A DNA stretch of 40,330 nucleotides, from the IMG/VR virus record IMGVR_UViG_3300028706_000016, positions 1-40,330 of that record. One strand, given 5' to 3'. Shown here piece by piece: positions 8,146 to 13,197 of this stretch. Below the pieces are notes generated by a model, which was not told where the DNA came from, did no database searches, and saw only the letters and a program-made list of their open reading frames with translations. How positions within the stretch are numbered: the first letter of the stretch is position 1; every line of letters begins with the position of its first letter. The position numbers were made by a program, and so were the translations under genes. The stretch comes from a virus.

Positions 8146-8772
8146 ATGTCAAAATCAAAAGATAACACTAAGAATATACCTAAGCACATTCCACTTGATA
8201 AAACGGTGGTTGAGAAGAAGTTTAAAGAGTCAAACGAATGCCAACTGGCTGAAAAAGAGTTAAGCGCTCTAGATACAGCCAACAAAGCATTTGATAAAAG
8301 AGTCTTCAAATGGATAACAACAACCAACCCAACGGGAGTTCAAACTAGTATTCACAATGTTTTTGAGTTTGCAAACTTTCACAAGGTAGTTGAGCCGAAT
8401 CAGCCAAAACTGAATCAGCTAAAACAAGCCTTTGATAGAGCATACAAAAAAGCTGAAAATGATGATAAGTTGAAAAGTTTTGTTAAGGAAAGCCGTAAGA
8501 CTATCCATAACAACACAATTAATAACAATGAGTCAATCAAGCTAGATACACCATTGGCCCGTAAAGGTGGCATAATTAGAACGATTATTGACATTACCAA
8601 AGATAAAGATGATAACTTCAAAACATCCGAGGAAATGGCAACTAAATCACCTAAACAGATTCAAGCGCTTAAAAACTTACTTAATGAATTCTGGATTGAT
8701 GTTGAATTAATCAAAGAAGAACAAACTAAGAAAATAAAAGAGCGTCAAGAAAAAGAAAAATCTGTTGCTTAG
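8146..8772 (+). CDS. Isolated lysine-rich early protein, possible regulator
   Basis: I placed the start at the ATG at 8146 (MSKSKDNTKNIPKHIP, 208 residues) because GGAG lies 7 bases upstream; the ATG at 8134 has no ribosome-binding site and upstream in-frame codons fall in the palindrome. I do not recognise the family. The product is rich in Lys and Asn, mostly helical by eye, and ends in a charged helix ('KKIKERQEKEKSVA'). It is a single-gene unit: promoter and palindromes before it, a strong intrinsic terminator after it. It is the first rightward gene next to two of the five palindromes, which makes it a candidate for the protein that binds them; that is inference. Confidence 0.75.
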   Translation: MSKSKDNTKNIPKHIPLDKTVVEKKFKESNECQLAEKELSALDTANKAFDKRVFKWITTTNPTGVQTSIHNVFEFANFHKVVEPNQPKLNQLKQAFDRAYKKAENDDKLKSFVKESRKTIHNNTINNNESIKLDTPLARKGGIIRTIIDITKDKDDNFKTSEEMATKSPKQIQALKNLLNEFWIDVELIKEEQTKKIKERQEKEKSVA

Positions 8773-12219: not shown

Positions 12220-12409
12220 TATAAATGGTGTTGAGTGTACCTACGCTAACAAGGATGAGTACGATTTCGAGGGTGGAGAATACGACAGTAATGAAGTAGA
12301 TACTATAATGCAGAGTGATGAGTATGCACAAGAGCATTTAGACTACAGTAAATTATTACTTGAAGATTATATAAAGAGTAAAGACAGGTGGATACAAAGA
12401 AACCTATGA
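12212..12409 (+). CDS. Small acidic protein, end of the early small-gene run
   Basis: A 65-residue product (MADINGVECTYANKDEYDFE) with many Asp, Glu and Tyr. AAGGAGG precedes the ATG. It ends the chain of overlapping small genes that began at 10825 and is followed by the 256-bp palindrome-rich gap. No family recognised. Confidence 0.55.
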   Translation: MADINGVECTYANKDEYDFEGGEYDSNEVDTIMQSDEYAQEHLDYSKLLLEDYIKSKDRWIQRNL

Positions 12410-12665
12410 TATAATAATACTTAGTATATATACTAGGTATTCCTATGATGTTATTAGTTGTAATTATATATAGTATACATTCTAGGTGTACCTAGTTAGT
12501 ACCTCTAGAAGTGCTACAGTTTTTCTTCCATTTTTTCTGTGGCACTTCTAGTGGTATTAATACTACTAAGGGCAATTTCTTGATGATATGAGAGTCTTTG
12601 CTAACAGAGGTGGGCAATCTTGTACTAAAGAGCCTCTTAAAATAACTAGGATAGGTGGAGCGTAT
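12410..12665. other. Second control region, dense in palindromes
   Basis: This 256-bp gap lies upstream of the SSB, primase-helicase and polymerase genes. Within 150 bp it holds TAGTATATATACTA (12422..12435), the word TATATATAGTATA (12465..12477) shared with the first control region, CTAGGT-GT-ACCTAG (12482..12495), a 15-bp stem (12505..12551) and an 18-bp near-palindrome (12550..12567). The rest, to the ribosome-binding site at about 12656, shows no clear promoter. An ORF opening at 12588 has no ribosome-binding site. Candidates are a secondary origin, a middle-gene control site or a processing site. Confidence 0.55.
12505..12551. repeat. 15-bp stem with 17-nt pyrimidine-rich loop
   Basis: CTAGAAGTGCTACAG (12505..12519) pairs with CTGTGGCACTTCTAG (12537..12551) over all 15 positions with one T-G pair. 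The 17-nt loop is T and C apart from one A. No T-tract follows in either direction, so it is not a standard terminator. The arms contain the same half-sites (GAAGTG, CACTTC) as the dispersed palindrome, but facing the other way. Confidence 0.7.
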
Positions 12666-12839
12666 ATGGCAGTGGTTCAGCATGGACATAGCATTGGCTA
12701 CGAGAGTAGGCTTAGAACTGAAGGTAAGAGTCACCTTCCCAACAAAGACTCACCAAAAGGGTTGCACTTCAAGAAGTGTGACATTGATGTTAATTATAAA
12801 GGAGATATATATGTCAGAAACAATGGCACTAACTGGTAA
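12666..12839 (+). CDS. Possible small protein overlapping the SSB start
   Basis: A 57-residue ORF (MAVVQHGHSIGYESRLRTEG) with GGAG 5 bases before its ATG. It overlaps the SSB gene by 29 bp in another frame. The CACTTC palindrome at 12765 falls inside it. I do not recognise the protein. It could be a leader peptide whose translation affects the SSB gene, or simply an open frame within a long leader. Confidence 0.35.
   Translation: MAVVQHGHSIGYESRLRTEGKSHLPNKDSPKGLHFKKCDIDVNYKGDIYVRNNGTNW
12765..12778. promoter_or_regulatory. CACTTC-AA-GAAGTG palindrome, copy 4
   Basis: A perfect 6-bp inverted repeat with an AA centre (flanks G and T do not pair further), 32 nt before the SSB start at 12811. 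Confidence 0.6.
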
Positions 12840-13197
12840 GGTTGTATTTAATCATGTAACTATACCCGACAACTTCAAGGGTTCAGAGAGATATGCTTTG
12901 ACCATTGCGTTGGATAAGGCTGGTCTTAAAACTGCTGAGAAAGCAGGTCTTAAGACTAGTGAGTATGATGGTAATGTACAAATTACTAGTCGCAGAAAGG
13001 TAGACTTTGACCGACCTAGGATTTACAATAAAGACAAAGACTTGGTTGATGCTGGACACCTGTCTCTGTTTGGAGATAAGGTAACTGTGGCTGTTAAGCA
13101 AGGAAAGGGAGACTTGAGTGGATATACTTATCTAGAGGCTATCCGTGTAGAAGAGAAGGCAGATGGAGTGGAGGACTTCGACCCATCTGAATTCTAA
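12811..13197 (+). CDS. Single-stranded DNA-binding protein, T7 gp2.5-like
   Basis: The 128-residue product (start MSETMALTGKVVFNHVTIPD) has the beta-strand pattern 'YALTIALDKAGLKT', 'ITSRRKVDFDRPRIYN' and 'VTVAVKQGKGDLSGYTYLEA' of an OB-fold and ends in an acidic tail with a terminal aromatic residue ('GVEDFDPSEF'). T7 gp2.5-type SSBs share this design; the tail recruits the polymerase and primase-helicase. The gene precedes those two partners, as in T7-like replication modules. AAAGGAGATATAT precedes the ATG. An internal near-repeat 'AGLKTAEKAGLKTSE' is visible. It is preceded by the palindrome at 12765 and followed by a UUCG-capped hairpin. Confidence 0.8.
   Translation: MSETMALTGKVVFNHVTIPDNFKGSERYALTIALDKAGLKTAEKAGLKTSEYDGNVQITSRRKVDFDRPRIYNKDKDLVDAGHLSLFGDKVTVAVKQGKGDLSGYTYLEAIRVEEKADGVEDFDPSEF

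Follow-up and report, generated by a model that had tools for sequence, protein, structure and literature searches.

The window analyzed here (the whole stretch of DNA, a virus record of 40,330 bases) comes from a marine podovirus-like phage whose portal protein is nearest, at about 40% identity, to those of LUZ24-type podoviruses and some environmental phages. A palindrome-rich segment in this window is followed by genes for a single-stranded-DNA-binding protein (SSB), a T7-type primase-helicase, a DNA polymerase, a Cas4-type exonuclease, and a ribonucleotide reductase. The SSB ends in an acidic tail with a terminal F. Its AlphaFold model (pLDDT 80) matches the Enc34 SSB (E 2.3e-5) and T7 gp2.5 (E 5.9e-4) in the PDB, and 6 of 13 members of the SSB family match PHROG 112 (gp2.5-like SSB); no Pfam match was found for the SSB. 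According to the predicted structure, the ssb product is an OB-fold SSB that is gp2.5/Enc34-like, and a gp32-type SSB, which was also considered for the gene downstream of the leader, was rejected on this basis.

A first-pass annotation, made from the sequence alone, described four palindromic elements in this segment, the largest being a 15-bp stem with one T-G pair and a 17-nt loop of T and C with a single A. All four are present (the smaller ones at 12422-12435, 12482-12495, and 12549-12568), and the large stem, with arms at 12505-12519 and 12537-12551, is exactly as described. Beyond one mismatch, an outer 7 bp (12497-12503/12553-12559) brings the hairpin, here called P2, to 22 pairs in the window, and the consensus across relatives has 23. 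P2 is far beyond chance. As RNA, positions 12496-12560 have a minimum free energy (MFE) of -33.3 kcal/mol, compared to -9.35 +/- 2.4 for dinucleotide shuffles (z -10, 0/200), a comparison of folding energies that the annotation had proposed. The longer interval 12419-12570, which runs from the probable start of the transcript through the last palindrome, has a z of -10.7 and a predicted junction-like fold composed of P1 and P2. The annotation was also right that no T-tract follows the stem. None follows P2 or P3 in the window sequence, and both stems were therefore rejected as intrinsic terminators.

Table 1. Positions of leader elements and of ssb in the window
Feature	Position	Strand	Remark
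Extended -10 promoter element TATGATATAAT	12405..12415	+	Kept in nearly all relatives
P1, stem-loop at leader 5′ end	12432..12496	+	In predicted MFE structure of window
P2, main hairpin	12497..12559	+	Apical 15 bp, 17-nt loop, outer 7 bp
P2 pyrimidine loop TTTTTCTTCCATTTTTT	12520..12536	+	17 nt, one A
P3, alternative hairpin TAGTGGTAT/ATACTACTA	12549..12568	+	5′ arm doubles as 3′ side of P2 base
Orphan insertion, ~195 nt	12570..12764	+	Between P3 and P4, in no relative
P4 position	12765..12778	+	In window, one of five dispersed palindromes CACTTCnnGAAGTG
TGTTAA element and ssb Shine-Dalgarno AGGAG	12788..12804	+	AGGAG at 12800-12804
ssb, gp2.5-like single-stranded-DNA-binding protein	12811..13197	+	AlphaFold model and PHROG 112

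The same order of elements is found in this phage and about 60 distinct relatives: a host-type extended -10 promoter, a folded leader of ~130-390 nt, the gp2.5-like SSB gene, and then the primase-helicase and polymerase genes. The leader comprises P1 (the 5′-end stem), P2, P3 (a 3′ hairpin that competes with the base of P2), P4 (a variable hairpin), and an accessible ribosome-binding site that follows GUUAA. Nearly all relatives have TATGnTATAAT or a close match ~180-275 nt ahead of the ATG of ssb, in many cases together with a good -35 element, and a scan of the window alone with the promoter consensus gave nothing above chance. The transcript of the window is expected to start near 12421-12422.

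The first-pass annotation placed the hairpin just upstream of the SSB gene. It does precede ssb, but in the window it is 250 nt away because the orphan insertion intervenes; in relatives, ~80-140 nt separate the loop from the ATG. We found no counterpart of this insertion in any relative or in phage records and no match to a known element, and the insertion was rejected as a structured RNA (z -0.6). Within it, the ATG at 12667 is in frame and has a good Shine-Dalgarno sequence, and a start there could add 48 residues to the SSB.

Scans of IMG/VR with the SSB and primase yielded well over 150 loci, many of which share contigs, and these were reduced to 65 distinct leaders. Members of the main group of relatives carry the promoter followed by the hairpin with a pyrimidine loop. 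Alignment A3 holds 42 leader sequences, of which 36 are distinct. A covariance model matches P2 of the window at 82.1 bits, and its minus-strand match at the same place (34 versus 82 bits) is the shadow expected of any hairpin. The window and each of 11 long contigs from relatives have a single copy of the element, always upstream of ssb.

Covariation among homologues, which the first-pass annotation had suggested looking for, is strongly present. In A3, 95.3% of the cells in the 23-pair stem of P2 are paired, and 12 pairs have changes on both sides (100 such cells). When the alignment was shuffled, the paired percentage or the cell count was reached in 0/500 trials and the pair count in 2/500, and slid P2 partners pair in only 33-56% of cells. 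Mapped onto a tree of ssb plus the beginning of the primase gene, the pairs of the stem have undergone at least 45 changes of type. P1 behaves similarly in the sister clade, where its 14 arm pairs are 96.4% paired and include 4 double-changed pairs, whereas slid versions reach 25-49%. In three leaders (L182, L183, and L184), a small open reading frame (ORF) is inserted between P1 and P2, which suggests that each stem can work as a module of its own.

The wobble cells indicate which strand folds. Within P2, 111 cells are G-T versus 17 that are A-C, and 15 of the latter fall at one internal mismatch. This excess implies that the + strand, most simply the transcript, is the folded molecule. Furthermore, in 27 leaders the + strand is more stable than its complement and folds far more strongly than most coding controls, whose z values span +0.5 to -3.3 across the set. 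Divergent relatives with other leader sequences (L177, L180, L190, and L198) still have folded leaders (z -2.6 to -5.7), and those of the most distant group (L203 and L204, 31% SSB identity) are not clearly folded (z -2.6 and -1.4). In L177, L179, L180, L190, and L198, the leader is still folded, but its sequence is wholly different and is built from repeated CTTAG/CTAAG-like blocks. Judging from these comparisons, the element is almost certainly a conserved structured RNA leader of the ssb mRNA that has been kept by natural selection. The mRNA with this leader also carries the primase-helicase and polymerase genes.

The element appears to represent an undescribed RNA family, for which the 42 sequences provide a model. 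With Rfam 15, no family reached the gathering threshold in the window, and the leaders gave only sub-threshold chance matches. No description was found in the literature searched, which was mostly without subscription papers. The STAXI motif (PMC2864571) is likewise a structured element near SSB genes, but STAXI is a tandem pseudoknot repeat, whereas the stems here are single, nested, and non-repeated and have no Rfam match. We found no DNA relatives of the element in annotated phages and none in prokaryote genomes. LUZ24 gp37 (SSB) starts ~22 nt after an annotated promoter and has no such leader, and in the Pelagibacter phage HTVC115P the 400-nt leader before the SSB gene shows no special folding (z -1.3). 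On these grounds, we assign the element to the present group of marine phages.

Conservation of sequence is distributed unevenly over the leader. In divergent pairs, the loop is 81% identical, the apical stem 59%, and ssb third codon positions 44%, while the three segments that form the P2 base and P3 are 84-87% identical. A conserved single-stranded loop over a drifting stem is as expected from the usual picture of a protein-binding hairpin, and these identities are consistent with such a role for P2. Two close relatives (L138 and L139) have a loop that lacks the CTTCC core. In four others (L021, L022, L023, and L025), the pyrimidine loop is enlarged by an inner hairpin (GTGTTTGTCAGACAC), with CTTCC retained.

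At the other end of the leader, AGGAG is preceded by GTTAA or GATAA in 49/49 distinct leaders, usually in one or two copies only. The ribosome-binding site is unpaired at 0.59, compared to a leader average of 0.38. Because this site is accessible, repression would need a bound factor rather than sequestration. In these phages, at least one further gene also has GUUAA ahead of its Shine-Dalgarno sequence, so the motif is not specific to SSB and constitutes weak evidence. We make no claim for a kissing interaction between the loop and the Shine-Dalgarno sequence: 4-6 pairs are possible, both sides are conserved so that covariation is uninformative, and the complementarity is weak in the clade of the window. 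A separate motif, TATCTCC, is conserved near the transcript start in nine leaders (L163, L165, L078, L087, L187, L191, L194, L196, and L197). It is complementary to the ssb Shine-Dalgarno AGGAG, and long-range pairing is possible in this one subclade.

P3 is paired in 99.1% of cells in the 36 distinct sequences and has one pair with double changes, and its support consists of these two observations because independent-contrast tests of single pairs on the tree, which correct for phylogeny, are underpowered. Alignment column 68 tracks both column 8 (A-U or C-G, in P2) and column 73 (T-A or G-C, in P3). Where column 66 is G, a C is usually present at column 10 or column 83 and rarely at both. 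At equilibrium, the P2 base is predicted to form at 0.90 versus 0.03 for P3. Since the P2 base is thermodynamically favored, P3 would form only if something opens it, and we advance as a hypothesis that the P2 base and P3 constitute a switch.

What might such a leader do? The best-described precedents come from phage T4, in which the mRNA of gene 32 is repressed by its product, gp32, by way of a folded 5′ element (a pseudoknot) and a UUAAA-rich ribosome-binding site (PMC535899, PMC3014915), and in which the operator for gp43 (DNA polymerase) is a hairpin with a conserved loop (PMC3014915). By analogy, the best reading of the leader is a putative autogenous translational operator of SSB, a role that we consider possible, if somewhat short of probable. 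With more SSB than the single-stranded DNA of replication can take up, the protein would bind the 17-21-nt pyrimidine loop, exposed at the tip of a rigid stem, and from there cover the open, A/U-rich region of ribosome binding. P3 may form as the P2 base opens. Translation of ssb, and possibly also of the downstream replication genes, would be shut off. Once replication exposes single-stranded DNA, SSB would be drawn away and translation would resume.

Several observations favor the operator. First, the leader is always immediately upstream of ssb and is single-copy. Second, P2 shows strong compensatory change, with the + strand as the folded one. Third, the sequence of the loop is conserved, as for a protein-bound single strand. 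Fourth, the ribosome-binding site is open and follows GUUAA or GAUAA, as would suit repression by a bound factor. Fifth, the gene product is predicted to be an OB-fold SSB, and T4 gp32 and gp43 give precedent. The first-pass annotation had suggested a regulator loop site, and this idea fits well when moved from DNA, where it does not hold, to a regulatory RNA element. Several findings stand against the operator. The distance between the loop and ssb is not kept, given the insertion in the window and the ORF between the first two stems in three relatives; GUUAA is shared with another gene; L138 and L139 depart from the usual loop core; and LUZ24 and HTVC115P have gp2.5-type SSBs without such a leader.

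The resemblance to the T4 systems is one of arrangement. As with the T4/RB69 gene 32 operator, a folded 5′ element stands before a phage ssb gene, and the open A/U-rich ribosome-binding site that follows it has GUUAA or GAUAA, usually in one or two copies, which may correspond to the UUAA-type elements of T4. However, the T4 element is a ~28-nt pseudoknot bound by gp32, whereas the leader here has large P1-P2-P3 stems with a pyrimidine loop and precedes a gp2.5-like gene. We found no pseudoknot in the leader, whose conserved fold consists of nested P1/P2 plus the alternative P3; this was checked by eye, as the folding programs predict no pseudoknots. Because no pseudoknot was found and the protein belongs to another family, the leader is not classed among the T4 gene 32-type operators, and the likeness is an analogy at most. 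The gene 43 operator is similarly an upstream hairpin with a conserved loop before a replication gene, but it is a 16-18-nt hairpin, in contrast to a 23-bp stem with a 17-21-nt loop here, and there is no homology.

In a more elaborate and rather unlikely version, the leader is an RNA that senses single-stranded DNA and has an origin independent of T4. An SSB of the gp2.5 family would read its own leader, and a bistable switch of three complementary segments (the P2 5′ base, the P2 3′ base/P3 5′ arm, and the P3 3′ arm) would be flipped by SSB trapping the loop, so that expression of the entire replisome operon would follow the level of free SSB. Only in T4-type phages is self-control of an SSB via its mRNA leader well known, and wider study has been called for (PMC3014915). 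A covarying leader before an unrelated SSB family in marine podoviruses would be a second, independent system, and it raises the question of whether SSBs commonly read their own mRNA. The 42-sequence RNA model can be used to search elsewhere.

The main rival to the autogenous operator is mRNA processing or stabilization, which we regard as unlikely but serious. P1 would shield the 5′ end, and host RNase III would cut or bind P2, giving a stable, separately controlled ssb-primase-polymerase message. The R sites of T7 early mRNA are RNase III sites in a phage transcript, and they too are intergenic hairpins ahead of replication genes. The first-pass annotation had listed an RNA processing site among its proposals, and the 23 consensus pairs of P2 could indeed make it an RNase III substrate, for which ~20 bp or more of duplex is the criterion. 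This long duplex is present in every member of the main group and shows compensatory change, P1 starts near the expected transcript start, the element lies between early genes and replication genes, and insertions are tolerated on both sides of P2. Such processing leaves the conserved loop and the competing arms of P3 unexplained (81-87% identity versus 44% at third codon positions). Neither feature is known from the T7 sites.

An effect on transcription elongation is distinctly improbable. Leader RNAs such as the put RNAs of phage HK022 let host RNA polymerase read on, and a complex fold near the host-type promoter of a ~9-kb replication operon might act likewise; alternatively, the P2 base and P3 comprise three segments complementary to one another, which suggests a switch that could serve as an attenuator. 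The missing T-tracts argue against an elongation element, as does the fact that P4, which bears a lineage-specific palindrome, is the sole terminator-like match in the window. Moreover, the ORF separates P1 from P2 in L182-L184, and the element is tied to ssb in every case and not to other operons. Still less probable is a riboswitch or a leader for a host protein, such as ribosomal protein S1 or a cold-shock protein acting on the U-rich loop. The leader position and the conserved single-stranded loop would suit it, but there is only one such loop, without a compact aptamer-like core, no Rfam family matches, and the gene downstream is always ssb. Least probable is a replication origin or a single-strand initiation hairpin acting as DNA, as the first-pass annotation had entertained: the segment adjoins the replisome genes, has palindromes, and in some members has an AT-rich P1, but this idea was rejected on skew and strand bias, since the turning points of GC skew and composition are not at the hairpin but near 8 kb and 21.5 kb, at the switches in gene orientation, the P1 interior is not AT-rich in several relatives, and the conserved upstream promoter, the 5′ leader position, and the preference for G-T over A-C point to a transcript, although G-T would also be tolerated in same-strand single-stranded DNA.

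Lastly, the arms of P2 had been linked to the dispersed palindrome of this phage through shared half-sites. That link does not hold, because L003 and L010 share the P2 arms (AGAAGTGCTACAG/CTGTGGCACTTCT) and yet have ACGCATTTAAATGCGT as their palindrome, so the resemblance is coincidental. The five copies of CACTTCnnGAAGTG in the window (7914, 8113, 8908, 12765, and 20484) mostly lie 16-40 nt before a start codon. At syntenic sites, the closest relatives (L012, L010, L009, L007, and L013) carry a different palindrome, with little or no variation inside any one genome: CAAGCATTTAATTGCTTG in L012, ACGCATTTAAATGCGT in L009 and L010, and ACGCAATTAAATGCGT in L007. This turnover indicates that the dispersed palindrome is separate from P2, and its concerted nature between phages suggests a co-evolving regulator. 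Just downstream of two of the palindromes, at 8146-8772, is a 208-amino-acid ORF that has no family match and is ~25% identical to its counterparts in relatives. Its product is a candidate for that regulator.
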